From Actinomycetales bacterium Actino_02 (lineage in GTDB: Bacteria > Actinomycetota > Actinomycetes > Propionibacteriales > Propionibacteriaceae), in contig LUYM01000024.1 in the NCBI GenBank assembly GCA_001603275.1, forward strand, positions 1-64,000: a DNA stretch of 64,000 bases. Reading direction: 5' to 3'. Below the pieces are notes generated by a model. It was not told the origin of the DNA, did not search any database, and saw nothing but the letters and a program-made list of their open reading frames with translations. The translations under genes were made by a program, and so were the position numbers. The stretch's first letter is position 1; each line of letters begins with the position of its first letter. This document shows, one piece after another, positions 20,164 through 58,819 of the stretch.

Positions 20164-20170
20164 GCATCCC

Positions 20171-26070: not shown

Positions 26071-26094
26071 TTGGCTTTCCGGCCTCTTGGGTGC

Positions 26095-26468: not shown

Positions 26469-26491
26469 GGGAGAAGCGATCGTGCTTCCAG

Positions 26492-26565
26492 CGACCCCGA
26501 CGGGACTCGAACCCGCGACCTCCGCCGTGACAGGGCGGCGCGCTAACCAACTGCGCTACGGGGCC
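26492..26565 (-). tRNA. tRNA-Asp (GTC)
   Basis: A 74-base cloverleaf on the reverse strand: acceptor GGCCCCG/CGGGGTC with one G-T pair, anticodon stem CCGCC/GGCGG with loop CTGTCAC (anticodon GTC), T-loop TTCGAGT. It lies 23 bases before tRNA-Phe and is probably transcribed with it. Confidence 0.95.
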
Positions 26566-26652
26566 TTGGTAAGGCCTCGCCGGCCCGTGTGGGCCAGCCC
26601 GGAAAATATAGCGTAACCCCTCCCCGGCGCGGAAATCGGGGTCCCGATGCGG

Positions 26653-42523: not shown

Positions 42524-42556
42524 GTCTGAAATAACTTCAGACGGCGACAGTCTGAA
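42524..42556. promoter_or_regulatory. Operator palindrome plus half-site before the fixC operon
   Basis: GTCTGAA-N5-TTCAGAC at 42524-42542 is a perfect inverted repeat, and another GTCTGAA follows at 42550-42556. It lies between the divergent TetR gene and fixC, 45-77 bases before the fixC ATG. Confidence 0.7.
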
Positions 42557-42600
42557 AAGTACGTACAGGCTTCGGCCTTCCCAATGAGGTGGAGGAATGC

Positions 42601-43974
42601 ATGGCTGAGGACGCGTTCGACGCGATCATCGTCGGAGCCGGGCCCGCCGGTAGCACCGCCGCCACGGTGCTCGCCCGGGCTGGTCTCGACGTGGTCCTGA
42701 TCGATCGTGGAGTGAGCGCCGGCAGCAAGAATCTGTCCGGCGGTCGGCTGTACACCCACGCTCTCGGCAAGGTCTTTCCGGACTTCGTTGACCAAGCACC
42801 ACTCGAGCGGCTGATCACCAAGGAGCGCATCTCTCTGCTGACTCAGGAGAGCGCCTCCACCGTCGAGTTCGCCAGCGGCAAGCTGGGCGGGCATTCCGCG
42901 TCCTACTCGGTGCTGCGAGCACCGTTCGATCAGTGGCTCGCCGATCAGGCCGAGGCTGCCGGCGCGAGCGTGATCACCGGGATCCGAGTGGACGACCTGC
43001 TGCTGCGTGACGGTCGAGTGGCAGGTGTCGTCGCCGGCGAGGAGGAGATGAGCGCAAAGATCGTCCTCCTCGCCGACGGCGCGATCTCCTTGCTGGCCCG
43101 TCGGGCCGGACTGATCGGCGAGCCGGACCCGCATCACTACGCGGTCGGGGCCAAGGAAGTGATCCAGCTCGGCGAAGAGGTGATCAGCCAGCGGTTCGGA
43201 CTGGCTGCCGGCGAAGGTTGCGCCTGGGTGTTCGACGGTGACTGCACCGACGGCCACATCGGTGGCGGCTTCCTCTACACCAACCGCGACACCGTCTCGC
43301 TCGGCATTGTCACCACGATCGGTGACCTGGGCTACAGCGACGTCCGGGTGCCGGAGATGGTCGAGCGGCTCAAGCGCCATCCGGTGGTGGCACCGCTGAT
43401 CGCCGGCGGCACCCTGGTCGAGTACGGCGGACACCTGGCTCTGGAGGGTGGCTTCGATGCCGTCCCGCAGCTGGTCCACGAGGGCGCCCTGCTGCTCGGT
43501 GACGCCGCCGGGCTCGGCCTCAACACGGGCTACACCATTCGCGGCATGGACCTGGCCATCGAGTCGGGACGGATCGCCGCCGAGACGGTGATCGCCGCGC
43601 ACGGCCGCAACGACTTCTCGGCCGCCTCGCTGGCCGAGTACGCCGACCGGCTCGCCGAGAGCTTCGTCCTCACCGACTTGGCCTTCTACCGCCGATTCCC
43701 GAAGTTCCTGGAGGACACCCGCGGGATGTTCACCGATTACCCGAAGCTGGCCGAAGACGCCATGCTGTCTTTGTTCTCCGTGGACGGCAGCAAGCCCGAA
43801 CCGATCACTCGCTCATTGCGCAACGCAGCGCGCCCGATCGGCTTCGGACGCCTCGTCCGGGATCTGTGGCGCGGGCTTGGCGCAATCAATGGACGGGCCT
43901 CTGTCGCCGGGGCCTTGGGCGGTGCCGCGTTCCGCGTCCGCGGCACCGCCAACCGCAAAGGGGGAACCCGATGA
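42601..43974 (+). CDS. fixC: FixC-like electron-transfer flavoprotein:quinone oxidoreductase
   Basis: 457 residues from ATG 42601 with GGAGG upstream. It has the FAD loop AIIVGAGPAGSTAA, the FixC block KNLSGGRLYTHAL, HYAVGAKEVIQLGEEVI and the second FAD motif EGALLLGDAAGLGLNTGYTIRGMDLAIESG. FixC, with FixX, accepts electrons from the FixAB flavoprotein and passes them to quinone, or takes part in electron bifurcation. First gene of the operon; overlaps fixX by four bases. fixA and fixB lie at the operon's far end, an unusual split. Confidence 0.93.
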   Translation: MAEDAFDAIIVGAGPAGSTAATVLARAGLDVVLIDRGVSAGSKNLSGGRLYTHALGKVFPDFVDQAPLERLITKERISLLTQESASTVEFASGKLGGHSASYSVLRAPFDQWLADQAEAAGASVITGIRVDDLLLRDGRVAGVVAGEEEMSAKIVLLADGAISLLARRAGLIGEPDPHHYAVGAKEVIQLGEEVISQRFGLAAGEGCAWVFDGDCTDGHIGGGFLYTNRDTVSLGIVTTIGDLGYSDVRVPEMVERLKRHPVVAPLIAGGTLVEYGGHLALEGGFDAVPQLVHEGALLLGDAAGLGLNTGYTIRGMDLAIESGRIAAETVIAAHGRNDFSAASLAEYADRLAESFVLTDLAFYRRFPKFLEDTRGMFTDYPKLAEDAMLSLFSVDGSKPEPITRSLRNAARPIGFGRLVRDLWRGLGAINGRASVAGALGGAAFRVRGTANRKGGTR

Positions 43975-44252
43975 GCCTGGAAGCCAAGCTCGCCGTCGAT
44001 CGCTTCGCCGTGGACGAGGAGTCGGCCCACATCAGGCTGGCCGACACCTCCGACGTCCCGCGCGAGACTCTCGAGCTACTGGTCAGGGGCTGCCCGGCCG
44101 GTCTGTACCGGCTCAATGACGACGGCAGCCTCGACTTCGACTATGCCGGCTGCTTCGAGTGCGGCACCTGCTACGTCCTCGCCCACGGAACCGCGCTGGC
44201 CGCCTGGCATTTCCCGCGCGGCGAGATGGGCATCGAATACCGCCGCGGATAG
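43971..44252 (+). CDS. fixX: FixX ferredoxin-like protein
   Basis: 93 residues from the ATG that overlaps the fixC stop. Cluster cysteines are in RGCPAGLYRL and AGCFECGTCYVLAH, and the C-terminus GEMGIEYRRG matches FixX. It carries an Fe-S cluster and forms the FixCX dehydrogenase. FixX normally works with membrane quinone as acceptor. Confidence 0.93.
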   Translation: MSLEAKLAVDRFAVDEESAHIRLADTSDVPRETLELLVRGCPAGLYRLNDDGSLDFDYAGCFECGTCYVLAHGTALAAWHFPRGEMGIEYRRG

Positions 44253-44281
44253 CGGCTCAACGGCAAAGAAGGAAGCACCTG

Positions 44282-46369
44282 ATGGGTATGAAGTTCCCGC
44301 TCCTGTCCTCACCACTGCAGGTGGGGGGAGTGGTCCTGCGCAACCGGATGATGACAACGTCGATGTCTCCGGGAGCCGGCTACACCGACCAGAACTCCCG
44401 TCCGACGCAGCGGTTCCTGAACTACCTGGAGCAGCGCGCCGCGGGTCAGACCGCCCTGATCACTCAGACCCTCAGCCCGCACGAGCGCTCGGTCGAGCAC
44501 CCCGGACTGTCGCCGATGCCCGGCTGCTACGACGACACCTGCCTGCCGCACCTGCGCCAGATGGCCGAAGTGGTGCACAAGCACGGCGGTCTGCTGGTCG
44601 GCCAGCCCTACTTCGTCCACGACTGGAAGACCAAGGCCGACGAGGACGAGCACCCCTGGGGTCCGTCCGACATCACCATCTTGAAGTTCATGGGTCCGTT
44701 TCGCCGGATGGAGGCCGAACACATCGCCCTATTCAAGAAGCAGTTCCTCAACTGCGTGCGGGTGATGAAGGAGGCCGGCTGGGACGGTGTCGAGGTGATG
44801 GCCGGCGTCGGCGGGATCCTCAACCGCTTCCTGTCCCCGGCCACCAACGATCGCACCGACGAGTACGGAGGCAGCCTGGAGAACCGGGTCCGGCTCACCG
44901 TCGAGGTGATCTCCGAGATCCGGGCCATGGTCGGCCCCGACTTCCCGATCGTCGTCCGCTGGTCGCCGGTGGAGTACGTCAAGAGTGAGCACGGCGCCGG
45001 ACACACCATCGAGGATGCCCTGAAGGTGGTTCCGTTCCTGGAGGCCGCCGGCATGGACCTGCACAACCTGGCTGTGGGTTGGCATGAGTCCAGCGTCCCG
45101 CTGACCACCAAGGAGATCCCGGACGGTCACTGGTCGTGGATCTCTCAGCGGATCAAGACCGTGGCCACCAAGCCGGTGGTTACCGCCTACCGGGAGACCG
45201 ATCCGGTGGTGATGGAGCAGATCCTGCGCGAGGGCAAGGCAGACCTGATCGGCGGACTGCGCTACTCGATCGCCGACCCGGACTTTCCGCGCAAGGTGGT
45301 CGAGGATCGCCCCGAAGAGTTGCGGATGTGCATCTGCTGCAACCGCTGCATCGATGACGTTGTTGGCCGTGAGCTTCCGTTGACCAAGTGCGCGGCCAAC
45401 CCGCGGCTGGGCGCGGAGCTGGACACCCTCACCCTGCCCCTCGCCACGGCACCCAGGAAGGTGATGGTGGCCGGCTCCGGCCCGGCCGGCATGTCGGCAG
45501 CCATGACGGCCGCTGATCGAGGCCACGACGTAACCATCTACGAGGCCGGCCCGCGGGTTGGTGGCTCGGTCAAGATGAGTTCGATCTTCAGCCCGCTGCA
45601 CGAGCGGCTGCTGCGCTCCTTCCGGGTGCAGTTGAGCCAGCACCCGCAGGTGAAGGTGGTGCTGAACACCCCGGTGACTCCCGAGTTGGTGCGCCAGGTG
45701 CGTCCGGACGCCGTGGTAGTGGCCATCGGTGGCGACCCGAAGGGCATCGACGTCCCCGGAGCCGACGGCTCGAACGTGGTCACCTCCCACGACTTCCTGG
45801 AGATGCTCAATGGGCGTCCGCCGAAGAAGCCGGGACTGATCAACAAGATCATGTGGAACTGCGGTGCGGTGTTCCTGCGGCTGTACTACACCCCCGGCTT
45901 CGCCCGGGTGATGAGCAAGCGCAGCCCGTGGCCGTTGGGCAACCCGCTGGCCATCGTCGGCGGTGGCCTCCCCGGCTGCGAGCTGGGGCATCTGGCCATG
46001 GAGAGCGGCCGCAAGACCACGATCATCGAGGCCGGGCCCAAGATCGGCCACGACGTCGGCGGCAGCGACCGTTTCCACATGGTGGGTGCGTTCCGCAAGG
46101 CCGAGAACGTCACCACCTTGACCAGCTCGGAGATCACCAAGATCACCCCGCGCACGGTCGAGGTCGTCCAGCACGGGCCTTCCGGCGATCAGCCGGTCAT
46201 CGTCCCGGCCAAGACAGTCGCGGTCACCCTCGGCTTCCAGGCCAACCGCTCGTTGTTCGAAGCCCTACAGACCACCGGGGTCGAGGTCTACGAGGCCGGC
46301 GATTGCGCCGACCCCGGACGGATCGCAGATGCCACCAAGGCGGGCTACCAGGCCGCCTGCCGGATCTGA
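44282..46369 (+). CDS. Old-yellow-enzyme/enoate reductase (2,4-dienoyl-CoA reductase-like)
   Basis: 695 residues. The N-terminal FMN barrel (about 1-355) begins with FPLLSSPLQVGGVVLRNRMM and includes DGVEVMAGVGGILNRFLSP and NDRTDEYGGSLENR. A four-cysteine Fe-S set follows: Cys-x2-Cys-x2-Cys-x13-Cys in MCICCNRC and TKCAANPRLG. The C-terminal half (about 395-695) has two nucleotide-binding motifs, VMVAGSGPAGMSAAMTA and LAIVGGGLPGCELGHLAM. This is the layout of enoate reductase, FadH and BaiCD/BaiH, which reduce a C=C bond of an enoate or enoyl-CoA using NAD(P)H. Lies 29 bases after fixX. Confidence 0.9.
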   Translation: MGMKFPLLSSPLQVGGVVLRNRMMTTSMSPGAGYTDQNSRPTQRFLNYLEQRAAGQTALITQTLSPHERSVEHPGLSPMPGCYDDTCLPHLRQMAEVVHKHGGLLVGQPYFVHDWKTKADEDEHPWGPSDITILKFMGPFRRMEAEHIALFKKQFLNCVRVMKEAGWDGVEVMAGVGGILNRFLSPATNDRTDEYGGSLENRVRLTVEVISEIRAMVGPDFPIVVRWSPVEYVKSEHGAGHTIEDALKVVPFLEAAGMDLHNLAVGWHESSVPLTTKEIPDGHWSWISQRIKTVATKPVVTAYRETDPVVMEQILREGKADLIGGLRYSIADPDFPRKVVEDRPEELRMCICCNRCIDDVVGRELPLTKCAANPRLGAELDTLTLPLATAPRKVMVAGSGPAGMSAAMTAADRGHDVTIYEAGPRVGGSVKMSSIFSPLHERLLRSFRVQLSQHPQVKVVLNTPVTPELVRQVRPDAVVVAIGGDPKGIDVPGADGSNVVTSHDFLEMLNGRPPKKPGLINKIMWNCGAVFLRLYYTPGFARVMSKRSPWPLGNPLAIVGGGLPGCELGHLAMESGRKTTIIEAGPKIGHDVGGSDRFHMVGAFRKAENVTTLTSSEITKITPRTVEVVQHGPSGDQPVIVPAKTVAVTLGFQANRSLFEALQTTGVEVYEAGDCADPGRIADATKAGYQAACRI

Positions 46370-46382
46370 GGAAGGAATCACC

Positions 46383-47138
46383 ATGGACGACGCCGTCTAC
46401 GCCGAGCAGCTCGAGCCCGGCATCACCGCGCTGGTGCTGAACCAGCCCCGCAAGAAGAACGCCATCAGCGCGCCGATGATGGTCCGGCTCGGCGAGTTGC
46501 TTCGCCAGGCGGATGCCGATGAGGCGACCCGGGTGGTGATCATCCGCGGTGCGGGCGAGAACTTCTCCAGCGGCGGGGACCTCCGCCAGACTCCGCCCGA
46601 TCAGGTCAGCCTGGCCAACACCCGGGCCACCCTGCGTCCCTACCTGGACGTGATTCGCCAGGTGCGCCGGATGGCCACCCCGGTGATCGCCATGGTGGAC
46701 GGCTACGCCGTGGGTGGCGCGTTCTCGCTGATGCTGGCCTGCGACCTGGTCTGTGTCTCCGATCGGGTGCAGGTGGTGCCCGCCTTCTGCAAAATCGGCA
46801 TCGTCCCGGAGATGGGGCTGGCCAAGTTCCTGCCGCAGCTGGTCGGCGACAAGCTCGCAAAGGAGCTGCTGTTCACCAACGCGGTGCTCGGTGCATCCGA
46901 GCTGCTCGGCTACCGGCTGATCAATCGGGTGTTCCCGGCCGACCAGTTGGTGGACGGCACCCTGACCCTGGCTCGGGAGGTGGCGGCCATGCCGGCCCTG
47001 TCGATCCAGCTCACCAAGGGGATGCTGAACGCCGGCTACGACGACGGCCTGGACGCCATGCTCGAGACCGAGGCCACCGCGTCCCCGTTCTGTGCGCACA
47101 GTGGAGCTTTCCGCGCGCCCGGTAGCGATCAGAGCTGA
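46383..47138 (+). CDS. Crotonase-fold enoyl-CoA isomerase/hydratase-like protein (CaiD position)
   Basis: 251 residues from ATG 46383 behind AGGAAGG. It is a crotonase with the oxyanion loop GENFSSGGDL and GYAVGGAFSLMLACDLV. Both hydratase glutamates appear absent: the first position is Ser (GGAFS) and the second is in VPAFCKIG. Instead Glu143 sits in GIVPEMG, where delta3,delta2-enoyl-CoA isomerases hold their base. I infer double-bond migration rather than hydration. In cai operons this slot is CaiD. Confidence 0.8.
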   Translation: MDDAVYAEQLEPGITALVLNQPRKKNAISAPMMVRLGELLRQADADEATRVVIIRGAGENFSSGGDLRQTPPDQVSLANTRATLRPYLDVIRQVRRMATPVIAMVDGYAVGGAFSLMLACDLVCVSDRVQVVPAFCKIGIVPEMGLAKFLPQLVGDKLAKELLFTNAVLGASELLGYRLINRVFPADQLVDGTLTLAREVAAMPALSIQLTKGMLNAGYDDGLDAMLETEATASPFCAHSGAFRAPGSDQS

Positions 47139-47151
47139 GCCGGCCACGTCG

Positions 47152-49734
47152 ATGAACGCCTTTCCACCTGCTTCGGGCTGGCCCAGTCTGGCCGGCTTTG
47201 CCAATGTCGCCGAGCCGTTCGTGGCTGCGGCGCGGGCGAATCCGGAGCGGACCGCCATCGTCTGCAGCGGGCGGGAGTACAGCTACGCCGAGGTGAATGC
47301 CCGGAGCAACCAGATTTGTGCACTGCTGGCTGCGCGTGGAGTGCGTCCCGGCGATGCCGTGGCCTACTTCATGCCGAACTGCGCCGCGCTGATCGAGGTC
47401 TACTACGCCATTCAGAAGCTGGGTGCGGTGGCAGTGCCGGTCAACGCTCGCTCCATCGCGCCCGAACTGGAGTACTTCCTGCGCACCTCGGACGCGACCG
47501 TGCTGCTGTTCTCGAGCCGATTCGCCGACGTCGTCGCAGACGTCCGTGGCCAGGTGGACGGGCTACAGACGGTGCTGTGTGTGGACGGCACGGTGGAGGG
47601 TGCGGAGGATCTGGGTCCGCTGCTGGACCAGTTCAGCACCGACGAGCCGGTGCCATTCCGTGACCCCGAGGCGCTCACCCGGATCCAGTTCACCGGTGGC
47701 AGCACCGGTGCCCCGAAGGCGGCTGAGCGGACCCACCGGGCCGACCTGACCGAGTTCGAAGGCGTCTACGGCTCCAACGGGATGTTCGCCGATGAGGCGA
47801 AGGTGGTGCTGATCCAATGCCCGCTGGAGCACCACGGAGGCCACTCCTGGTTCGGGAGTGCGCTGGCGCTGGGCGCCACCTTGGTGCTGTGCTCGTCCTT
47901 CGACCCGGATCAGATTCTGGCCAGCATTCAGCGTTATCGGGTCAGCTACATCATCTTGTTGCCGCCGACCACCTACGTGCGGTTGATGTCGCATCCGCGG
48001 CTGGGGGAGTATGACCTGTCCTCGGTACGGCTGGTGCAGAGCTCGGCCGGCGGCACCAGCCCCGAGATCGTCGCCGATATCTATCGGACGTTCCCGAACG
48101 CGATCATGAACTACGGCTGGGGCCAGACCGAGTCCGGTCTGGGCTGCAGTCTGGTGCTGACTCGGGAGATGGCGCTGAACCGGACGCCCCGGATCCGCAG
48201 CATCGGTCGGCCGATGCCACTGATGGAGATGCGGATCGTCGACGAGGACGGCCAGCCCGTCCCGGACGGAGTCATCGGGGAGTGCGTGTGCCGCTCGGCC
48301 GCAGTGATGCGCGGCTACCACGGCCAGCCCGAACTGACCGCGGCGGGCTTCACCGCTGATGGCTGGTGGCGCACAGGCGATCTGATGCAGCGCGACGCCG
48401 ACGGCTACTTCTACCTGGCCGGGCGTAAGCGTGAACTGATCAAGTCCGGCGGCGAGAACGTCTTCGTGAGCGAGGTGGAGGCGGTCGTCCGCGAGCATCC
48501 AGCCGTGCTGGATGCGATGGTCTACGGCGAGGCCGATCCGGTGCTGGACGAGGCCATCGCTGCGGTCGTCGAGCTGCGTCCGGGTGCGTCGCTGACGCTG
48601 GTCGAGCTGCAGAGCTTCTGTCGTGGACGGCTGGCGGGCTTCAAGAAGCCGCGCTCGCTCACGGTGCTGCCGAGCTTGGGACGGGACTTCGCCGGCAAGC
48701 TGCACCGAACCCAGGTGATCCAGCGCAGCCGTGATGCCCGGGCCCGGCTGGCGTCGCTGAAGCGTCACCCCGAGCTGAACGACGTGCTCACCCAGGTGCA
48801 CAGCGATCCGGTCGTCTACCGGGTCACTTTGCCGATGCTGCCCCGCCACGCCGCGACGACCAATGCCTACCTGGTCGCGGGGACGCGGGGCTGGCTGTTG
48901 GTTGATCCGGGCGCAGCCAACGAGGTGGCCCACGGCACGTTGCTGCGCGCCGTCGAGTACCTGCAGGCCGAGATATCGGCGGTCTACCTCAGCCATGAGC
49001 ACGCCGATCACTCGGGGCTCGTGGCCCGCTGGCTGGGCGCCTCGCAGCTGGTCCGCAGCGCGGCCTCCTTCGGTCCGTCCCGGGTCAGTGAGCGGTTCAC
49101 CGCGGCGGGCTTCGCGGCCGATGAGGTGATCCTCTATGGATGCCTGCAGCTTCGCGCCTGCCCGGCAGAGGTGCCTGAGCTGCCGTGCCAGCTGGTCGGT
49201 GACGGGGATCTGCTCAATCTCGTCGGTCTGAGTGCCCAGGTGGTGGCCACGCCGGGTCACACCGACGGGCATCTGTGCTTGTACCTGCCCGATTCGAAGC
49301 TGCTGTTCAGCGGGGACCATGTGCTCTTCGACCTCCCTCCGGCCCTGTTCGCGGAGGTGGGTGACCCGGTGGCCAGCTACCTCGACAGCCTTCGGCGGGT
49401 GGCTGAGCTGGACGTCGAGACCGTCCTTCCCGGTCATGGACGACCTCGCGGACGCGAGGAACTGGCCACCCGGCTTCGTCGGCTCCGGCGACACCATGAG
49501 CGCCGCCAGGTCGAGCTGGTCGCCTTGGTGGCGGCGCATCAGCCGGTGACCGCGGCTGAACTGATCATCACCCATCGAGCACCGCACCGGGAGTGGACCA
49601 AGGTCGCTCCGGGGCGTCGCTGGTCGATCGCCAGCACCACTGTGGCCCGGCTGGAGCACCTGGTCGCCTCCGGCGCATTGGCCACCACCCTCGGCCCAGA
49701 TGGGCTGATCCGCTACCACGTCGAAAGCAACTGA
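47152..49734 (+). CDS. Acyl-CoA ligase fused to a metallo-beta-lactamase hydrolase domain
   Basis: 860 residues from ATG 47152; upstream in-frame GTGs at 47092 and 47101 overlap the crotonase gene. Residues 1-540 are an adenylate-forming ligase: FTGGSTGAPKAAERTHRA, YGWGQTES, GWWRTGDLM, LAGRKRELIKSGGENVFVSE and the catalytic Lys in DFAGKLHRTQ. Residues about 565-770 are an MBL domain with intact ligands (SHEHADHSGL, TPGHTDGHL, FSGDHVLFD, LPGHGRP), then a LACTB2-like winged helix. The ligase half takes the place of CaiC; the MBL half could hydrolyse thioesters or lactones. No frameshift joins them. Confidence 0.88.
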   Translation: MNAFPPASGWPSLAGFANVAEPFVAAARANPERTAIVCSGREYSYAEVNARSNQICALLAARGVRPGDAVAYFMPNCAALIEVYYAIQKLGAVAVPVNARSIAPELEYFLRTSDATVLLFSSRFADVVADVRGQVDGLQTVLCVDGTVEGAEDLGPLLDQFSTDEPVPFRDPEALTRIQFTGGSTGAPKAAERTHRADLTEFEGVYGSNGMFADEAKVVLIQCPLEHHGGHSWFGSALALGATLVLCSSFDPDQILASIQRYRVSYIILLPPTTYVRLMSHPRLGEYDLSSVRLVQSSAGGTSPEIVADIYRTFPNAIMNYGWGQTESGLGCSLVLTREMALNRTPRIRSIGRPMPLMEMRIVDEDGQPVPDGVIGECVCRSAAVMRGYHGQPELTAAGFTADGWWRTGDLMQRDADGYFYLAGRKRELIKSGGENVFVSEVEAVVREHPAVLDAMVYGEADPVLDEAIAAVVELRPGASLTLVELQSFCRGRLAGFKKPRSLTVLPSLGRDFAGKLHRTQVIQRSRDARARLASLKRHPELNDVLTQVHSDPVVYRVTLPMLPRHAATTNAYLVAGTRGWLLVDPGAANEVAHGTLLRAVEYLQAEISAVYLSHEHADHSGLVARWLGASQLVRSAASFGPSRVSERFTAAGFAADEVILYGCLQLRACPAEVPELPCQLVGDGDLLNLVGLSAQVVATPGHTDGHLCLYLPDSKLLFSGDHVLFDLPPALFAEVGDPVASYLDSLRRVAELDVETVLPGHGRPRGREELATRLRRLRRHHERRQVELVALVAAHQPVTAAELIITHRAPHREWTKVAPGRRWSIASTTVARLEHLVASGALATTLGPDGLIRYHVESN

Positions 49735-49745
49735 AAGAGGAAGAG

Positions 49746-50900
49746 ATGGATTTCCAGATCACTGAGGAGCAGGAGCTCCTGTTGGAGAGCCTGCGCGAGG
49801 TGATGGCGCGCTCCGGCAGCGAGGACTACATGAAGGAGTGCTACGCCGAGCATCGCTACCCCCAGGAACTGGTGGACGCTCTGAATGAGGCGGGCTTCTC
49901 GATGCTGGGAGTACCCGAGGAACATGGCGGCACTCCGGTCGACACCCTCACCTTGATGCTGGTTGCCGAGGAGATCTGCCGCCTGGGCGGCCCGCACTTC
50001 GTCTTCGGACAAGCACTGTCGATCGCCGACATGCTGGAGTTCGGCTCACCGAAGCAGCAGGCCGAGTGCATGGCCGAGATCACCGCCGGCCGGGTCGGCT
50101 TCGTGCTGGGCTTCACCGAGCCGCAGGCTGGCTCGGACTCCAGCGCCATCGCCACCACCTTCACCCGTCGCGACGGCAAGGTCTATCTGAACGGCCACAA
50201 GACCTTCATGAGCAATGCGCAGCGGGCGCGCTACATGCTCTGCCTGGCCCGCAACTCCGAGCCGGGCGCCGACGCCGACAAGAAGAACGCCTTCACCATG
50301 TGGTGGGTGCCGATGGCAGCCACGGGGATCACCGTCGAGCCGCTGTCCAAGATCGGCTGGCACATGATGGACACCTGCGAGGTCTACCTCGACGAGGTCG
50401 AGCTGGACGAGTCCGACCTGGTCGGAGTCGAGGGCAACGGCTTCATGCAACTGATGATCAACTTCGAGGTCGAGCGGCTGCTGATGGCGTCCAGCCTGCT
50501 GGGCATGGCCGAGTGCGCCTTTGAGGATGCAGCCCGCTACGCCAACCAGCGGATCCAGTTCGGCAAGCCGATCGGAACCTTCCAGCTCACCCAGGAAAAG
50601 ATCACTTACTCCAAGCTGCGCATCGAGAACATGCGCAACCTGATCCACAAGACCGCCTGGAAGATCGACAGCGGTCAATCGGTGCAGATCGACTCCGCTC
50701 TGGCCAAGCTCTACTGCGCCCAGGAGGCCAACAAGGTCATCGACGACGCCATGCAGATCATGGGCGGCATCGGCTACACCACCGACTGCCGGATCTCCCG
50801 GTTGTGGCTGGACGCCCGGGTGCAGCGGATCGGCGGCGGCACCGACGAAGTGATGATCCACATCGCCGGCCGCTCGATTCTCAAGCAGTACCAGGACTGA
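49746..50900 (+). CDS. caiA: CaiA-like acyl-CoA dehydrogenase (enoyl-CoA reducing direction inferred)
   Basis: 384 residues. It starts MDFQITEEQELLLESLREVM as CaiA does, and keeps TEPQAGSDSSAIATTFTRRDGKVYLNG, CAFEDAARYANQRIQFGKPIGTFQLTQEK and AMQIMGGIG. The usual acyl-CoA dehydrogenase YEGT glutamate is replaced by GGGTDE, as I recall for E. coli CaiA (GGSDE). CaiA reduces crotonobetainyl-CoA with electrons from FixAB. The substrate here is likely related in type but not shown. Confidence 0.85.
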   Translation: MDFQITEEQELLLESLREVMARSGSEDYMKECYAEHRYPQELVDALNEAGFSMLGVPEEHGGTPVDTLTLMLVAEEICRLGGPHFVFGQALSIADMLEFGSPKQQAECMAEITAGRVGFVLGFTEPQAGSDSSAIATTFTRRDGKVYLNGHKTFMSNAQRARYMLCLARNSEPGADADKKNAFTMWWVPMAATGITVEPLSKIGWHMMDTCEVYLDEVELDESDLVGVEGNGFMQLMINFEVERLLMASSLLGMAECAFEDAARYANQRIQFGKPIGTFQLTQEKITYSKLRIENMRNLIHKTAWKIDSGQSVQIDSALAKLYCAQEANKVIDDAMQIMGGIGYTTDCRISRLWLDARVQRIGGGTDEVMIHIAGRSILKQYQD

Positions 50901-50910
50901 GGGGCCAGCC

Positions 50911-51690
50911 ATGAAGAGCATCGTCAGTGATCTGCTGGCCGAGCAGGCCCAGGTGGACGCCACCCTGGACGGGCTGTCCGAGAGCGTGTGGAACTCGCCG
51001 TCGGCGAATTGCGAGTGGACGATCAAGCAGGAACTGCAGCACGTGGCCGCCTTCGACTACGCCGCGGTGAAGATGATCGGCGGCGGCTACACCTGCGTCA
51101 ACGAGGTCTCCGATGTGGAGTTCGGGCACGACGCCATCTACACCCCGACCGCGTTCGGGCACCTGACCGGCGCCGAGACAATGACCTGGTGGCGCGAGCA
51201 GCGCAGCCGGCTGGCAGTGACCTTCCTGGACACCGACCCCAAGGCCCGGATCCCGTGGGCTCCGGGGCTGCCGATGTCGGCCAAGTCGCTGGCTTCGGCG
51301 CGGCTGATGGAGCTGTGGGCGCACTCGGTGGACATCTATGACGCGCTCGGCCTGGATCCGGTGGTCAAGAACCGGATCGTCAGCACCCTGTTCCTGTCCT
51401 GGCAGGCCCGTCCGAACGCCTACCGGATCAACGGGCTGGAGTTGCCGGACACCCCGCTGTACCTGTCGGTGACGTTGCCGTCGGGGGAGCTGTGGACCCG
51501 CGGCGATCCGGACGCCACCAATCGGATCAGTGGCACCGCCCGGGATTGGGCGCTGGTGGCGGTGCGGCGCCGCAACTGGATGGACACCGACCTGGAAGTG
51601 GTCGGTGACGAGGCCAGACGGTTCGCCAGCATCGTCCAGACCTTCGCCGGGGAAGCCTCCCCGGTGGCCCCCGCGAAGAACCCGAGGTAG
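50911..51690 (+). CDS. DinB/MDMPI-type mycothiol-dependent-enzyme family protein
   Basis: 259 residues. The N-terminal four-helix domain has CEWTIKQELQHVAAFDYAA and LMELWAHSVDIYDALG, with the His residues that would bind metal; the C-terminal domain is small and beta-rich. This is the maleylpyruvate-isomerase N-terminal (TIGR03084-like) group. Its presence inside a cai/fix operon is unusual; a thiol-dependent isomerisation or detoxification step is possible. It lies 10 bases after the dehydrogenase gene. Confidence 0.78.
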   Translation: MKSIVSDLLAEQAQVDATLDGLSESVWNSPSANCEWTIKQELQHVAAFDYAAVKMIGGGYTCVNEVSDVEFGHDAIYTPTAFGHLTGAETMTWWREQRSRLAVTFLDTDPKARIPWAPGLPMSAKSLASARLMELWAHSVDIYDALGLDPVVKNRIVSTLFLSWQARPNAYRINGLELPDTPLYLSVTLPSGELWTRGDPDATNRISGTARDWALVAVRRRNWMDTDLEVVGDEARRFASIVQTFAGEASPVAPAKNPR

Positions 51691-51700
51691 AGGAGTAGCG

Positions 51701-52945
51701 ATGCCTGCACGTCTTTCCCAGCCGGAGTTCGGGCTGCTCAACGGCTACCGGGTGATCATGATCGGGCTTTCGGTGGCCGCACCCTTCGCCGGCGAGCTGT
51801 TCGCCGAGCACGGCGCCGAGGTGATTTGGATCGAGAACCCGAAAGCGATCGACTCCGCCCGGATCGCTCGCCGCTCGGGGGCCTGGCAGCAGGACCGGCG
51901 CAATATGCGCAGCCTGTCGCTGGACTACGTGCACGGGGCCGGACGAGAGGTCTTCGCCCGGCTGATCGAGACCGCCGATGTGCTGGTCGAGGCTTCGGTG
52001 GGCGGCCGGTTCGCCAAGATCGGCTACGCCGACGAGACGCTGTGGGAGCTCAACCCGGACCTGGTGATCGCCCACATTTCCGGTTTCGGGCAGAGTGGCG
52101 ATCCCCACTACGTGTCGCGAGCCAGCTACGACCCGATTGCGCAGGCCTTCGGCTGTGTGATGCGGATGAACGGGCTGCCCGGACAGCCGTCCGCCCCGGC
52201 CATGCCATTCCCGGCTGACTACGCCGCGGGCATGTTCGCCTTCGGCATGGCCAATGCGGCGCTGCTCAAGCGCCAGCAGACCGGACGTGGCGAGAGTCTC
52301 GACATCGCTCAGTTCGAACTGATGATGCGGCTGCAGGCCAACTATCCGACCGACTACTACCGCTACGGCTTGGACTACACCAAGGAAGGCAATCGCAGCC
52401 GGATCTGTGCCATGTACGGGACCTACACCGCCGCCGACGGCGAAGAGGTCTACGTGCTGGTGCTCGGTGCCGGGGTGGTGCCCAAGGTGCTGGCGCTGCT
52501 CGAGCTCGACTACGGCAGTGAGCTGTTCCCGACCGGCTCCACGTTCGTCCCGGTGGACACCGAGGCGGCGCAGGTGCTGGAGGCGGCCTTTGCCGAGTTC
52601 CTCAGCCTGCACACCGCCGCCGAGGTGGAAGAGATCCTGGCCGGAGCCGGGATTCCGTGTTCGCGACTGATGGATTACGAGGCGGCCCGCACCCACCCGC
52701 AGTACGTCGCCCGAGGCGTGATTACCGAGTGGCTGGCCGCCGACGGACAGACCCGGATCCCCGGCGTGAAGGTGGTGCCCGAGGTGGCAGGACATCCCGG
52801 CCAGGTCTGGCGCGGCGCGCCAACCGTCGGAATGGACAACGACGAGATCCTGGCCGACCTGGGGATATCGACCCAGCTGCGTGACGAGCTCTACGCGGCC
52901 GGCCAACTCACCCGGCGAGAGTACTTCGAGACCACCGGTGGCTGA
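51701..52945 (+). CDS. caiB: CaiB-like CoA-transferase 1 (type III)
   Basis: 414 residues, start ATG behind AGAGGAG. Family III pattern: LLNGYRVIMIGLSVAAPFAG, FAEHGAEVIWIENPKAID, HISGFGQSGDP and the catalytic Asp173 in FPADYAAGMFAFG. The C-terminus (GVKVVPEVAGHPGQVWRGAP) also matches CaiB. Such enzymes move CoA from a product thioester to the incoming acid through a glutamyl or aspartyl anhydride. Another family III transferase follows. Confidence 0.88.
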   Translation: MPARLSQPEFGLLNGYRVIMIGLSVAAPFAGELFAEHGAEVIWIENPKAIDSARIARRSGAWQQDRRNMRSLSLDYVHGAGREVFARLIETADVLVEASVGGRFAKIGYADETLWELNPDLVIAHISGFGQSGDPHYVSRASYDPIAQAFGCVMRMNGLPGQPSAPAMPFPADYAAGMFAFGMANAALLKRQQTGRGESLDIAQFELMMRLQANYPTDYYRYGLDYTKEGNRSRICAMYGTYTAADGEEVYVLVLGAGVVPKVLALLELDYGSELFPTGSTFVPVDTEAAQVLEAAFAEFLSLHTAAEVEEILAGAGIPCSRLMDYEAARTHPQYVARGVITEWLAADGQTRIPGVKVVPEVAGHPGQVWRGAPTVGMDNDEILADLGISTQLRDELYAAGQLTRREYFETTGG

Positions 52946-52999
52946 CCCGACCGGATCCCCACAAAACCCACATCCACTAGCAGAAACAGAGGTAGGCCG

Positions 53000-54217
53000 A
53001 TGAGCCCCTTGCCCCCTCCGAAGTTCGGAAACCTGCAGAACCTGAAGGTGATCAACGCCTCCTCTGTGGTCGCCGGCCCGTTCATGTGCGAGCTGTTCGC
53101 CGAGCAGGGCGCCGACGTGATCCAGGTGGAGAGCACCCTGGTGCCCGACATGTACCGGCTGTGGCCGCAGTCGTGGTCCATGGAGCGACGCAACCAGCGC
53201 TCGATGACCCTCAACATCCCGACCCCGCAGGGCAAGGAGGTGCTGTTCCGGCTGCTCGCTGACGCCGACATGCTGGTGGAGTCCTCCCGCGGCGGCACCT
53301 GGGCCGGCTGGGGCCTCACCGACGAGGTGCTGTGGCAGGTCAAGCCGGATCTGGTGATCGTCCACGTCTCCGGCTTCGGTCAGAGCGGCGACCCGGACTA
53401 TCTGCGCCGGGCCTCCTTCGACTCGATCGGACAGGCGTTCAGCGGCTACATGGCCATCAACGGGTTCCCCGACCCGATGCCGCCCTACGTCACCAAGCCC
53501 TACACCGGCGACTTCATCGCCGGGCTGTTCGGAGCGTGGTCGTCGCTGGCTGCGGTGATCCGGGCTCGGGAGACCGGCGTGGGGGAGAGCATCGACGTGG
53601 CGCAGTTCGAGTCGATCGTCCGGCTCCAGGCGTCCTACCTGACCGACGGGCTGAACAAGGGCAAGCAGGCTCCCCGAATGGGCAACCTCGACACTGTCGG
53701 TGCTTGTCAGGGCACCCAGCAGTGCCGTGACGGCTGGATCTTCATCGCCGTCGGCGGCGCCAAGGCCGTGCGCAACATGATCGAGTTCTTCGGCCTGGGA
53801 GAGGACCCCGACTTCCAAGGCACGATCCAGTCGATCACCCGCAACTTCCCCGAACGGGCTCGCAAGTTCACCGAGAAGCTGGACCAGTTCTGCCTGGACC
53901 ACACGGTGGCCGAGGTCGAGGCGACCTTCGCTCCGATGGGGGTCGCGCTCAGCCCAATCATGACCTACCAGATGATGCTCGAGAACTCCCATTACCAGCA
54001 GCGCGGGGTGTTCGAGAGCTGGCAGGACATCCAGACCGGCGAAGAGATGCTCGGGGCCACTCCGGTGCCGAGATTCGCCAACAACCCGAGTCGGACGGTG
54101 CGCGGTGGCGCCCCCTACGACTACGACACCCGCTCGGTGCTGAGTGAGCACGGCTTCAGCGACGAGCAGATCGACGAGCTCTACCAGCTCGGAATCCTCA
54201 ACAACGGCGCGAAATAG
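53000..54217 (+). CDS. CaiB-like CoA-transferase 2 (type III)
   Basis: 405 residues, ATG behind GAGGTAGG. It shares the layout of the preceding gene (LKVINASSVVAGPFMCELFA, HVSGFGQSGDPDYL) and keeps the catalytic Asp171 in YTGDFIAGLFGAW. The two are clearly paralogous yet well diverged, so they may work on different acids or as a heteromer. A 54-base gap separates them. Confidence 0.88.
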   Translation: MSPLPPPKFGNLQNLKVINASSVVAGPFMCELFAEQGADVIQVESTLVPDMYRLWPQSWSMERRNQRSMTLNIPTPQGKEVLFRLLADADMLVESSRGGTWAGWGLTDEVLWQVKPDLVIVHVSGFGQSGDPDYLRRASFDSIGQAFSGYMAINGFPDPMPPYVTKPYTGDFIAGLFGAWSSLAAVIRARETGVGESIDVAQFESIVRLQASYLTDGLNKGKQAPRMGNLDTVGACQGTQQCRDGWIFIAVGGAKAVRNMIEFFGLGEDPDFQGTIQSITRNFPERARKFTEKLDQFCLDHTVAEVEATFAPMGVALSPIMTYQMMLENSHYQQRGVFESWQDIQTGEEMLGATPVPRFANNPSRTVRGGAPYDYDTRSVLSEHGFSDEQIDELYQLGILNNGAK

Positions 54218-54249
54218 CGCCACAACCGTCACCTGACAGAGAGGTCAAA

Positions 54250-55542
54250 ATGACAACCAACGCCACGCCGGGCAACCTCGCCCCGCTGGCTCCGAAGACC
54301 GGTCTGGGCTCGAACTACGCCTGGCTGATCGTCGTCGCCTGTATCGGCTTCTACGCCATTCCGGTCGGAGTGGTGGGCAACACTTCGGGCGTCTTCCTCA
54401 CCCCGGTGATGAAGGAGACCGGGTGGGATCGCACCACCGCCTCCTTGTACATGACTCTGCAGCCGTGGGTTGCCGCCTTGTGCACGCCGTTCGCCGCCAA
54501 GATCATGGCCAAGTACAACCCGCGCTGGGTGCTCACCATCACCGCAGCGCTCTACGGCCTGGCAACCATCTGGACGGCCTACGCCACTCAGCCGTGGGAA
54601 TGGCACGCCTATGGCGTGATCTACGGCATCACCTGCTCGTTCTTCATGTTCTTCGCGGTTCCGACCCTGATCAACGCCTGGTTCCGCAAGGGTGCCGGCG
54701 TCGCTCTCGGTATCGCCGGTGCCACGCTGAGCCTGATTGCCGCGCTGTGCAGCCCATGGGCTCAGTCGATGATCGCCACCAGCGGTTGGCGTTCGGCCCG
54801 GCTGGTGTTCGGCATCATCATCACGGTCGTCCCGACGATCCTGACCGCGCTGTTCGTCCGCCGCGATCCGGCCAGCATGGGCGTGCTTCCCTTCGGTGCC
54901 GAGGCGCAGGCCTCGTCGTCCGGCGCTGCGGCAGCCCCGGCTCAGGAAGGCGCCACTCTTGATCAGGCGCGTCGCTCGTTCCCGTTCTACCTGCTGATCC
55001 TGGTGGCCGGCTTCTTCGTGCTCTGTGCGGCCTTCTTCCAGCAGATCCCGTCCTTCGCGGCGACCGGCCCGCTGGGTGCTGCTGCCGGCGCCCTGGCCGT
55101 GTCGATCGTCATGGTCGGCTCGACGATCGGCAAGTTCCTGCTCGGCTGGATGAGCGACAAGATCGGCAGCATGGTCACCGGTGTCTTTGCCGCGCTGTGC
55201 GGTGCTGTCGGTGTGGCTATGGCGTTCTTCTCCGGAGCCAATGTGACGGTGTTCTACATCGGCATGGGCATCTTCGGCATCGGTTTTGCGGCACTGACCG
55301 TGGTGTCTCCGATGCTGGCCCGCGAAGGCTTCGGCACGGCGAACTACTCCGACATCTACCAGTGGGTCTCCACCGGCATCTTCGTCTTCAGTGGTGCGGC
55401 GGCGCTCATCTACGCCCGGATCTTCGACCTCACCAAGAAGTTCGATGCTGCGTTCATCCTGGTCATCGTCATGTACGTGCTGACCGCGGTGTTCATCCCG
55501 ATCATCGTCAAGAACGCTCGCAAGAGCTGGGCCAAGGCCTGA
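54250..55542 (+). CDS. MFS transporter 1 (monocarboxylate/oxalate-formate antiporter-like)
   Basis: 430 residues with 12 predicted helices, a short N-terminal tail and a central loop near residues 215-240. WLIVVACIGFYAIPVGVVGN and YGVIYGITCSFFMFFAVPTLINAWF fit the OFA/MCT-type carriers. The operon context suggests uptake of the carboxylate or exchange with its reduced product; this is inference. Confidence 0.85.
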   Translation: MTTNATPGNLAPLAPKTGLGSNYAWLIVVACIGFYAIPVGVVGNTSGVFLTPVMKETGWDRTTASLYMTLQPWVAALCTPFAAKIMAKYNPRWVLTITAALYGLATIWTAYATQPWEWHAYGVIYGITCSFFMFFAVPTLINAWFRKGAGVALGIAGATLSLIAALCSPWAQSMIATSGWRSARLVFGIIITVVPTILTALFVRRDPASMGVLPFGAEAQASSSGAAAAPAQEGATLDQARRSFPFYLLILVAGFFVLCAAFFQQIPSFAATGPLGAAAGALAVSIVMVGSTIGKFLLGWMSDKIGSMVTGVFAALCGAVGVAMAFFSGANVTVFYIGMGIFGIGFAALTVVSPMLAREGFGTANYSDIYQWVSTGIFVFSGAAALIYARIFDLTKKFDAAFILVIVMYVLTAVFIPIIVKNARKSWAKA

Positions 55543-55551
55543 GTCGTTGCT

Positions 55552-55581
55552 TGCTGGGACGGCCCTCGGGTCGTCCCAGCA
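55552..55581 (+). terminator. Hairpin between the two MFS genes (attenuator-like)
   Basis: Perfect 10-base arms (TGCTGGGACG / CGTCCCAGCA) around a 10-base loop, 9 bases past the first MFS stop. There is no T-run; partial termination or mRNA processing is plausible. Confidence 0.5.
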
Positions 55582-55603
55582 GGGGACGCGGAAAGCGACT
55601 TCA

Positions 55604-56887
55604 ATGACCAAATCATCTGTCAGCAGTTGGTGGCCCTGGCTCGTTCTGCTGGGCTGCATTGGTTGTTACTCGATCCCGGTCGGAATGATCGGAAACACCG
55701 CCGGGCTGTTCGTGGCACCGGTGATGGACCAGTTCGGCTGGGACCAAACCAGCACCACCATGTACCGCACCATTCAGCCGCTCGTGGCTGCGGTGTGCAC
55801 CCCGATCGCCGGACGGATGTTCGCCCGGTACTCGCCGCGGGTGCTCCTCACCATCACTTCGGTGGTATTCGGCCTCTCTTCGGCCGCCACCGCCTATGCC
55901 ACCGAACTGTGGCAATGGAACCTCTACGGCGTCATCTACGGCGTGACCTGTGCCTTCTTCATGTACCTGGCCGCCCCCGTCCTGGTGAACCGCTGGTTCC
56001 ATAAGAGCAACGGACTCGCCTTGGGGCTCACCGCGGCCGTGCTCAGTGTGCTGGCCGCCTTCACCAGCCCGATCACCCAGGCCCTGATCAGCTCGAACGG
56101 CTGGCAGTACTCGCGGTTGGTGATCTGCCTGGTGGCCACGGTCGTCTCGGTGGTGCTCACCTTCCTGTTCGTCCGGGACAGCCCCGAGAAGATGGGCCTC
56201 AAGCCCTACGGGGCCGATGAGGCGCCGTCCGGAAATGGGCCCGCCGATGCCGTCCGCGGTGGCGAAGGTGCCACCCGCGCGCAGGCACTGGCCAGCCCTG
56301 GCTTGTACCTGATGATCCTGATCGCGGCCATCATCGTGATGACGGCCGCCTTCTTCCAGCAGGTGCCGGCCTACACGGCCAAGAGCCCGCTCGGCGCTGC
56401 GGCCGGTGCGGTGGCGGTCTCGATCGTCATGATCGGCGGCACCATCGGCAAGCTGGTGCTCGGCTGGCTGGCTGACCGGATCGGCGTGAAGCCGACCTCG
56501 ATCGCGGCCATGCTGTGTGGAGCCCTCGGCATGCTGCTCGCCTATCTGGCCACCGAGGTCTGGCCGTTCTACCTGGGCATGGTGATCTTCGGGGTGGGCT
56601 ATGCCGGCCTGACCGTGATCGTCCCGCTGCTGGTGCGCAACTGCTTCGGAAGCCTCAACTACGCCGAGATCTACTCGTGGGTGTCCACCGGCATCTTCTT
56701 GGCTACCTCGCTGTCGTTCCTGATCTATGGACGCATCGTCGACCTGACCGGCTCCTTCGCCTGGTGCTTCTACCTGGTGATCGGCCTCTACCTGCTTGCC
56801 GCGGTGCTGATCGTGCCCGCGGTGAACCTGTCCCGAGGCTCGTGGGTGCCGAAGGATCGTGACCTGACAACCAAGGTGGGAGTTTGA
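55604..56887 (+). CDS. MFS transporter 2 (paralogue of the preceding carrier)
   Basis: 427 residues from ATG 55604; the frame's upstream part overlaps the hairpin. It parallels the first carrier closely (YSIPVGMIGNTAGLFVAPVM; YGVIYGVTCAFFMYLAAPVL), so a local duplication is likely. Twelve helices. Its stop overlaps the fixA start by one base, which ties carriers and electron-transfer genes into one mRNA. Confidence 0.85.
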   Translation: MTKSSVSSWWPWLVLLGCIGCYSIPVGMIGNTAGLFVAPVMDQFGWDQTSTTMYRTIQPLVAAVCTPIAGRMFARYSPRVLLTITSVVFGLSSAATAYATELWQWNLYGVIYGVTCAFFMYLAAPVLVNRWFHKSNGLALGLTAAVLSVLAAFTSPITQALISSNGWQYSRLVICLVATVVSVVLTFLFVRDSPEKMGLKPYGADEAPSGNGPADAVRGGEGATRAQALASPGLYLMILIAAIIVMTAAFFQQVPAYTAKSPLGAAAGAVAVSIVMIGGTIGKLVLGWLADRIGVKPTSIAAMLCGALGMLLAYLATEVWPFYLGMVIFGVGYAGLTVIVPLLVRNCFGSLNYAEIYSWVSTGIFLATSLSFLIYGRIVDLTGSFAWCFYLVIGLYLLAAVLIVPAVNLSRGSWVPKDRDLTTKVGV

Positions 56888-57657
56888 TGAAGATCGTTGC
56901 CTGTTTCAAGGTCGTCCGGGACGAGCGTGACCTCGTGGTCGCGCCCGACCGGACGGTCACCCTCGATGCCTGTGGCCTGCGGGTCGGCGACTACGACCTC
57001 AACGCCATCGAGGCCGGCGCACAGCTGGCCGCCGATGGTGGTGAGCTGGTGGCGCTCACGGTGGGTGGCGAGGAGGTTCGTGACTCCAAGCTGCGCAAGG
57101 GCGTGCTGTCCCGCGGGGTGAGTGGGCTGACTGCCGTGGTCGATCCGAGTCTGACTACTGCGGACGCGGGCGCCACGGCGGAGGTCTTGGCTGCGGCGGT
57201 CGGACGCCTCGACGGCGTCGATCTGGTGGTGTGCGGCGAGGGCTCGGCGGATCGCTATGCGCAGCAGGTGGGCGCACAGGTGGCCGCCCGGCTCGGGCTG
57301 CCCTACCTGAACGAAATCAGCAAGATCGAGGTCTCCGCCGACGGCCTGGTCGTCGAGCGGACGCTGGACGGGGTTGTCGAGACGCTGGCCGTGCCGCTGC
57401 CGGCGGTGCTCTCGGTGACCTCGGGTCTGAACTCGCCCAGGATCCCGACGATGAAAGACATCCTCGGGGCCGGCAAGAAGCCGGCGACCGACTGGTCGCT
57501 GGCCGACCTGGGTGTGGCGTTGCCGGTCCCGGCCGCGGCGGCCGGGCCGGAGCGCGCACCGGAGTCCCGGCAGCGGGCCGGTGCCGTGTATGAGGCGGCT
57601 CAGCAGCAGGAGTTCTTCGACGCCCTGCGTCGGTTGATCGGGAAGGATGCCAAGTGA
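56887..57657 (+). CDS. fixA: FixA, electron-transfer flavoprotein beta subunit
   Basis: 256 residues from ATG 56887, which shares one base with the preceding stop. Family motifs include MKIVACFKVV, DYDLNAIEAGAQLA, CGEGSADRYAQQVGAQVAARLGLPY and LNSPRIPTMKDILGA. FixA with FixB forms the flavoprotein that passes electrons between the CaiA-like dehydrogenase and FixCX. Overlaps fixB by four bases. Confidence 0.93.
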   Translation: MKIVACFKVVRDERDLVVAPDRTVTLDACGLRVGDYDLNAIEAGAQLAADGGELVALTVGGEEVRDSKLRKGVLSRGVSGLTAVVDPSLTTADAGATAEVLAAAVGRLDGVDLVVCGEGSADRYAQQVGAQVAARLGLPYLNEISKIEVSADGLVVERTLDGVVETLAVPLPAVLSVTSGLNSPRIPTMKDILGAGKKPATDWSLADLGVALPVPAAAAGPERAPESRQRAGAVYEAAQQQEFFDALRRLIGKDAK

Positions 57658-58571
57658 AGGCGAAGCGAGCCGTTGTCTACGGCGAGTCGGTCGGGGGCTA
57701 CGCCGAGTTGTGCGCGGGGGCGTCCGCCCTTGCCGAAGAGGTGATCGCGATGGTGGTCGGGTCGGCCGACCAGGCGTCCGCGGTGGCCGAACTCGGGGTG
57801 GCGGTACGCCTGCTCGAGATCTCCGAGGACGTCTGGCTGGACGACTGCTGGCCGGCGCTGATCGAGGAGATCACGGCCCTGCAGCCGGAGCTGGTGCTGC
57901 TGCGGGCCGGCAAGCGAGTCCGGGCATTGGCCGGACGGCTGTCGGTGGCGACCGGAGTGCCGGTGGCCAGCGATGTGGCCTCCCTGGCTGAGGCCGAGGC
58001 CGGCTTCGAATTCGGGCTGGTCCGCTATGGCGGAGCGACCGAGCAGGCCTCGGTGGCACCGTCGGTGATCGCCATCGTGGGTCCCGGACTGTTCGCACCG
58101 GCCGCGCCGGTCGGCGGCGGATCGGTGACCACCATCGACGCCGCGGTGGCGTCCGGCCCGATTCGGCTGCTCTCGCGGGCACCGCTGGCCGAGGAGAGTG
58201 TGGATCTCGGCGTGGCCGAGGTCGTGGTCGGCGTGGGCCGGGGGATCGGCTCGGTGGAGAACGTGGCCCGGGCCGCCGAACTTGCCCGCAAGCTCGGCGG
58301 TGAGCTGGCGTGCAGCCGTCCGATCGCCGAGGGGCTGGGCTGGCTGCCCAAGAACCGCTATCTGGGGGTCTCCGGCGCGGTGATCTCGCCGAAGGTGTAC
58401 CTGGCGCTGGGCATTTCCGGCCAGGTGCAGCACCTGGTGGGCGTGAATGGTTCGAAGGCAATTGTGGCCATCAACAAGGACAAGAACGCGCCGATCTTCG
58501 GGCATTGCGATCTTGGCCTGGTTGCCGACCTCGAGGCGATGCTGCCGGAGCTGCTCGACAAGCTCGCCTGA
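57654..58571 (+). CDS. fixB: FixB, electron-transfer flavoprotein alpha subunit
   Basis: 305 residues from the GTG that overlaps the fixA stop. The C-terminal FAD domain is intact: GVSGAVISPKVYLALGISGQ, VNGSKAIVAINKDKNAPIF and DLGLVADLEAMLPEL. It is the last gene of the operon and is followed at once by two hairpins. Confidence 0.93.
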   Translation: MKAKRAVVYGESVGGYAELCAGASALAEEVIAMVVGSADQASAVAELGVAVRLLEISEDVWLDDCWPALIEEITALQPELVLLRAGKRVRALAGRLSVATGVPVASDVASLAEAEAGFEFGLVRYGGATEQASVAPSVIAIVGPGLFAPAAPVGGGSVTTIDAAVASGPIRLLSRAPLAEESVDLGVAEVVVGVGRGIGSVENVARAAELARKLGGELACSRPIAEGLGWLPKNRYLGVSGAVISPKVYLALGISGQVQHLVGVNGSKAIVAINKDKNAPIFGHCDLGLVADLEAMLPELLDKLA

Positions 58572-58574
58572 GGC

Positions 58575-58645
58575 TGGTGGACGTCTGCGTGACGTCCACC
58601 ACTGAGCCAGGTTGGGGGCCCGCGGGGTGGCCTCCAACCTGGCTC
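58575..58645 (+). terminator. Double-hairpin terminator at the end of the operon
   Basis: Hairpin 1 (58575-58601) has 11-base perfect arms and a TGCGT loop; hairpin 2 (58604-58645) has 17-base arms with one wobble and an 8-base loop, then TTCTG. They directly follow the fixB stop. Confidence 0.85.
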
Positions 58646-58819
58646 TTCTGCGTCCGGCTCTGGCTGGACGGCAGGCCTCGGGCCGGTGTGATTGGGCCGA
58701 AAAACCGCTCGTGCTGAATGAGTGGTGAGATAAATGGAAAATCCCTACCCAACGGCATTCATTTGGGGGATATGCTCGCCGCCACTGTTGTAATGACCCA
58801 CACTCCCGAAGAGGTCACC

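Follow-up and report, generated by a model that had tools for sequence, protein, structure and literature searches.

A conserved actinobacterial CoA-ester redox operon, proposed to reduce a conjugated unsaturated acid, carries an OYE-type reductase in which glycine replaces the proton-donor tyrosine

We analysed a window of 64,000 nucleotides (positions 1 to 64,000 of contig LUYM01000024.1) from Actinomycetales bacterium Actino_02, a member of the Propionibacteriaceae whose genome assembly comprises 3.05 Mb in 31 contigs. The window contains an operon-like unit of 13 genes that runs from fixC to fixB (42601-58571). As described in an earlier reading of the sequence alone (the original prediction), every named gene lies on the plus strand, and neighbours overlap or are separated by short gaps; with the start codons chosen in this analysis, no gap exceeds 61 bases. 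Other families keep the core genes together as a unit, so their clustering goes beyond chance. The genes and flanking elements are as follows.

41753..42484, minus strand: divergent tetR-type repressor gene (Pfam TetR_N, 48.8 bits)
42524..42556, no strand: operator-like palindrome with a third half site (pattern count; kept in the sister genome)
42601..43974, plus strand: fixC, electron-transfer flavoprotein (ETF):quinone oxidoreductase-like, YdiS family (NF007450, 496 bits, cut-off 466; 50% identity to YdiS)
43971..44252, plus strand: fixX, ferredoxin-like, with four Cys (room for one 4Fe-4S cluster)
44282..46369, plus strand: old yellow enzyme (OYE)/4Fe-4S/FAD-type reductase without the proton-donor Tyr
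46383..47138, plus strand: crotonase with an isomerase-type acid residue
47152..49734, plus strand: acyl-CoA (AMP-) ligase fused to a metallo-beta-lactamase (MBL; thioesterase-like) domain (Pfam; PDB matches of the MBL part; HEHADH in the translation)
49743..50900, plus strand: acyl-CoA dehydrogenase (ACAD), YdiO family (NF008997, 644 bits, cut-off 537)
50911..51690, plus strand: MDMPI/DinB-like metal protein (TIGR03084, 275 bits, cut-off 248)
51701..52945, plus strand: class III CoA-transferase, CaiB-like 1 (profile matches)
53000..54217, plus strand: class III CoA-transferase, CaiB-like 2 (profile matches)
54250..55542, plus strand: major facilitator superfamily (MFS) carrier 1
55604..56887, plus strand: MFS carrier 2, 51% identical to carrier 1
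56887..57657, plus strand: fixA (ETF beta)
57654..58571, plus strand: fixB (ETF alpha)
58575..58645, plus strand: double hairpin at the operon end (folding; kept in the sister genome)

The divergent TetR gene, front palindrome and terminal double hairpin that had been predicted were all recovered. The palindrome, GTCTGAA-N5-TTCAGAC, occupies positions 42524-42542 and is followed by a third half site at 42550-42556. The window has a single two-arm pattern of this kind with a spacer of 3-8 bases, and none of 100 shuffled sequences has one. The double hairpin (58575-58601 and 58604-58645) folds with -59.9 kcal/mol (z = -7.55). Both elements are retained in the sister genome G015, in which the operon is collinear with that of the window and the fixC-to-fixB proteins are 91-98% identical. 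Directly 3' of the double hairpin lies an amino-acid-permease-like gene (58718-60394), and the G015 operon is also adjoined by one.

A gene-neighbourhood search in other Actinobacteria, suggested together with the original prediction, showed that the order OYE, crotonase, CoA ligase(/MBL), ACAD and MDMPI recurs in Propionibacteriaceae, Cellulomonadaceae and some of the Eggerthellaceae, to which we assign the family of genome G569 (G numbers denote genomes and L numbers loci); the core order is kept across two classes. The same core order, with an OYE 64-96% identical to that of the window, is found at L025 and L026 (both from the window genus), in Actinotalea (L028), in a Cellulomonas metagenome-assembled genome (MAG; L031) and in a Coriobacteriia MAG (L032). 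The L032 stretch ends after the MBL gene, its ACAD and MDMPI genes lying on another contig (L056), and L027, again from the window genus, ends with its contig after a partial ligase. At E 1e-130 the OYE was detected in 3 of 396 phylum-wide genomes, the window's own counted. In the Eggerthella family, 16 of 138 genomes have it, spread over 8 of 48 genera, and one of these 16 copies is broken. All four genomes of the G569 genus, taken to be Eggerthella, carry it. In G654 the OYE copy is in two pieces (L077/L079) with an internal stop. An earlier contig scan, which used two strict 7-residue patterns, gave five loci and none from the Eggerthella family; its count does not describe distribution. 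No OYE was found on plasmids at E 1e-100.

The main type of Eggerthella-family OYE is 56-61% identical to the window OYE, and most of these stretches have CaiB and MFS genes in front. Genes for fixCX stand directly before the OYE in L080, L081, L084, L085 and L087, with no match in the other Eggerthella-family stretches; fixAB follows the module in L062, as does fixA in L084. The more distant copies L090 and L092 (OYE 51-53%) have citrate/sulfate-type anion symporters beside the OYE and CaiB genes and no MFS match. A FAD_binding_2 reductase-like gene lies near the L090 copy.

The window OYE belongs to the OYE superfamily, scoring 188 bits against the Oxidored_FMN domain (cut-off 27). In a PDB sequence search its nearest solved structures were 6qkg, named 2-naphthoyl-CoA reductase (NCR; E 7.5e-84), and the 2,4-dienoyl-CoA reductase FadH, 1ps9 (5.4e-71). 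This corrects the earlier label of enoate reductase: the closest solved relatives act on CoA esters. According to the accessible part of the NCR study (PMC6502838), Tyr197 is the proton donor, a tyrosine called invariant in OYEs; His284 and Tyr82 make it more acidic, and Tyr320 binds the thioester carbonyl. The numbering used there for R245, H284, Y197 and Y320 matches those letters in the 6qkg sequence. When the window OYE is aligned to NCR, His284 and Tyr320 correspond to His268 and Tyr303, and Tyr197 corresponds to Gly178.

This substitution characterizes a clade. Across 23 aligned rows, one from the window and 22 from other loci, Gly178, His113, His268 and Tyr303 never vary, nor do the four cluster Cys; Tyr110 is found in 21, with Trp in L090 and L092. 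Among 16 control OYEs from relatives, the proton-donor place is Tyr in 16 and position 113 is Gly in 16, while His occurs at 268 in 11 and Tyr at 303 in none. A branch supported at 100/100 separates the clade from the rest of the tree, but its exact placement is unsure since long branches meet there. Another residue, perhaps His113 or Tyr110, would supply the proton. An AlphaFold2 model of the OYE, for which six sequences were used, was of low quality (mean pLDDT 58.8), and a proton source is not visible from it.

The crotonase that the original prediction had listed is present and looks like an isomerase. Its top PDB matches (6slb, 6sl9, 3hrx and 6sla) are named only as enoyl-CoA hydratase; we take them to be PaaG of T. 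thermophilus. The best match named by an isomerase function is 4fzw, E. coli 1,2-epoxyphenylacetyl-CoA isomerase. Where the top matches have an Asp (position 136 of 3hrx), presumably catalytic, 20 of 20 module crotonases have Glu. Enoyl-CoA hydratases use two catalytic Glu; at the presumed places of these residues, one is Phe in all 20 rows and the other is Ser in 7 and Ala in 13, so that the pair of glutamates is absent. For the fused ligase, an HxHxDH motif lies within the ligase frame at 13 of the 17 loci with a full ligase frame, the others being L026, L032, L086 and L088.

The ACAD, first described as CaiA-like, and fixC were both found where predicted, and both are better assigned to E. 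coli Ydi families. On model NF008997 the window ACAD scores 644 bits against a cut-off of 537 (E. coli YdiO, 786), its best E. coli DNA match is annotated ydiO, and Glu is present at the ERL position in 20 of 20 rows. Similarly, fixC scores 496 bits on NF007450 (cut-off 466; E. coli YdiS, 972) and carries a Pfam ETFQO_UQ-bd match. In each of the two CaiB-type CoA-transferases the catalytic Asp is kept in 16 of 16 rows, counting only rows at least 43% identical. The His/Glu/His set of MDMPI is kept in 20 of 20 rows, and a PDB sequence search with MDMPI gave no match up to E 0.1. MshC scored over its cut-off in all five genomes from the window genus and Cellulomonadaceae and in none of six Eggerthella-family genomes that carry the same MDMPI, which makes a mycothiol label doubtful.

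A ligase with two CoA-transferases and an OYE with an isomerase-like crotonase and an ACAD/ETF chain, with no carbon-cleaving enzyme matched, suggest that the acid is converted rather than degraded; profile searches of the operon genes gave no match to a thiolase or a hydroxyacyl-CoA dehydrogenase. OYE, isomerase and ACAD are the steps needed for saturating a conjugated or cyclic dienoyl-CoA. We therefore propose, with slightly more belief than doubt, that the module reduces a conjugated polyunsaturated acid, possibly cyclic or hydroaromatic, in two stages as its CoA ester, the acid acting as an electron sink. The individual reactions, their sequence and reducing direction, and the substrate class are predicted from protein families and active-site residues. 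The MFS carriers would import the carboxylic acid and the CoA ligase would activate it. The OYE would then reduce the conjugated system of the enoyl-CoA, after which the PaaG-like crotonase could move the double bond that is left to a position beside the thioester. The YdiO-type ACAD would reduce this last double bond, drawing on electrons that move between FixAB and the quinone-linked FixCX. Both CaiB-type transferases would charge fresh substrate with the CoA of the product, the MBL domain may cleave surplus CoA ester, and the saturated acid would be exported. The core of the original prediction, CoA-dependent reduction of an unsaturated acid, is still the best reading of an operon with a ligase, two CoA-transferases, an ACAD, ETF and FixCX, and no thiolase match.

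Several observations weigh against this proposal. An OYE without the proton donor may not be an ordinary ene-reductase. Three Fix proteins fall below curated cut-offs: FixA with 272 of 338 bits on the YdiQ model NF008998 (E. coli YdiQ, 495), FixB with 196 of 528 and FixX with 111 of 166. At the limit used, 122 of the 138 Eggerthella-family genomes gave no OYE match. The copies also vary, with no crotonase or ligase match in L090 and L092, no MBL match alongside the ligase in L026, L086 and L088, and separate ligase and MBL genes in L032. Finally, ACAD/ETF enzymes can work both ways, so an oxidative role is possible.

Such an oxidative route, in which ACAD and OYE would dehydrogenate a saturated or cyclic acid, for example toward an aromatic acid, and FixABCX would deliver the electrons to menaquinone, seems unlikely to us. 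ETF with FixCX, given the ETFQO_UQ-bd match on fixC, does resemble the ETF:quinone oxidoreductase route, Actinotalea and Cellulomonas are not strict anaerobes, and there is a match to cyclohexane-1-carbonyl-CoA dehydrogenase, though a weak one far below the cut-off (180 of 650 bits). Yet the operon has no thiolase or hydroxyacyl-CoA dehydrogenase match. We favour reduction because of the CoA-recycling enzymes, since non-catabolic reductions such as cai typically recycle CoA through CaiB-type transferases, because of the kinship to cai, and because the module is found in the Eggerthella family, whose members are anaerobes.

A special case of the proposed reduction, in which hydroaromatic acids (shikimate, quinate or their dehydration products) would be converted to cyclohexanecarboxylate, is rather improbable. 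The chemistry of a dienoyl-CoA reductase, an isomerase and an ACAD fits such substrates. E. coli ydiO and ydiQRST adjoin ydiB, encoding quinate/shikimate dehydrogenase, and aroD, but this neighbourhood may be a coincidence; a link through the E. coli carriers YdiM and YdiN was rejected, the window MFS carriers not being specifically related to them. Dehydratase-type genes occur at some loci (two MaoC genes at L026, SnoaL_4 at L084 and L085), whereas no dehydratase match was found in the window operon.

Genes resembling caiA, caiB, caiC and fixABCX also raised the idea of a second carnitine/crotonobetaine operon, for which we see very little likelihood. A search with the window ACAD revealed another ACAD in this genome, on contig C16, where region 8000-27900 (L046) carries, in order, MFS, alpha/beta hydrolase, CaiA, CaiB, FixA, FixB, CaiC, MaoC, MFS, FixC and FixX. 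CaiA (698 bits, cut-off 540) and CaiB (649, cut-off 413) pass their models there, CaiC falls just under its own (634.6 of 651), and the hydrolase passes an acetyl esterase model (408.9 bits against 389). In content, and by description only, the C16 locus agrees with the P. freudenreichii carnitine cluster, listed in the accessible part of PMC11007987 as caiABC and fixABCX with MFS and alpha/beta hydrolase genes alongside, plus a further MFS gene and one for an enoyl-CoA hydratase. All the window counterparts miss the same cut-offs, with the ACAD at 425 of 540 bits, the CaiB-like proteins at 346.8 and 355 of 413 and the ligase at 217 of 651. Because of this separate cai/fix cluster and the missed cut-offs, the window operon is not a carnitine operon, which bears out the earlier description of a cai/fix-like CoA-dependent redox module distinct from classical carnitine metabolism. 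Likewise, 10 of 11 chosen module genomes hold a CaiA over the cut-off besides the module ACAD, G015 having the module ACAD only. The original prediction had also pointed to the absence of CaiT and CaiE. No match to either was found among the operon genes, but the missing CaiT is a weak argument since the P. freudenreichii cluster, as far as it is described in the accessible part of PMC11007987, also lacks CaiT and has MFS carriers.

An equally remote bai-like conversion of bile or steroid acids, to which the operon had earlier been compared, is suggested by an OYE of the BaiCD superfamily, CaiB-type transferases and MFS proteins that weakly match a bile-salt carrier (97 and 103 of 400 bits), but the comparison fails on a BaiCD score of 310.7 bits against a cut-off of 825, no short-chain dehydrogenase or SnoaL match among the window operon genes, and members in Cellulomonadaceae.

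If the proposed reduction is correct, the gut genus Eggerthella has a dedicated acid-reduction route absent from the described literature that we found; our literature search met no published description of the module, which is weak evidence as much subscription literature lay outside its reach. If correct, the proposal would also offer an entry point to the E. coli YdiO/QRST system and a way to learn how an OYE can function when its tyrosine is missing. The module is very likely present in a cultured gut species. More tentatively, it may represent a form of anaerobic respiration, so far undescribed, in which gut Eggerthella and other Actinobacteria reduce an acid, with a new OYE catalytic class in which a clade-specific segment (H113 in 23 of 23 rows, Y110 in 21 of 23) replaces the tyrosine and for which CoA esters that are cyclic, hydroaromatic or aromatic may be substrates.

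Other features were noted around these loci. At the loci examined for it, and unlike the window with its TetR gene, L062, L080 and L084 have a sigma-54 factor gene downstream, and L062 and L084 a sigma-54 activator gene as well; the sigma-54-related genes of L062 are at 6302-7726 and 4229-6271. Genes matching only the C-terminal part of HSP70 lie on the strand opposite to the module at L062:18871-19704 and L089:15399-16163, and look-alike open reading frames occur at L084, L088 and L091. A Gabija defence pair (GajA, 614 bits; GajB, 486 bits) is encoded on the minus strand of contig C24 at about 62,936-66,534 (L047:2937-6535), partly past the window end, in a stretch of lower G+C.

Among known systems, the E. 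coli ydiO/ydiQRST/fadK/ydiF region resembles the window operon in its ACAD (54% identity), FixA (47%), FixB (38%), FixC (50%) and FixX (45%), and has genes for a CoA ligase, a CoA-transferase and two MFS carriers in its vicinity. It differs in that no OYE, crotonase, MDMPI or CaiB-type gene is annotated there and its MFS carriers are not close; we know of no established substrate for it. The cai/fix systems of E. coli, P. freudenreichii and contig C16 share the logic of ligase, class III CoA-transferase, ACAD and FixABCX. Compared to these, the window operon has an additional OYE, PaaG-like crotonase, ligase-MBL fusion, MDMPI and second transferase, and misses the cai cut-offs. The bbu cluster of Emergencia timonensis likewise combines two class III CoA-transferases, an ACAD-type flavoenzyme and a thioesterase, but the six-gene list in the accessible part of PMC8364193 names no OYE and no CoA ligase, its carrier is of the betaine type and it makes trimethylamine. 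NCR stands in another gene context and has the proton-donor Tyr where the window OYE has Gly; the window enzyme nevertheless keeps its FMN, 4Fe-4S and FAD layout and the positions of Tyr320 and His284.

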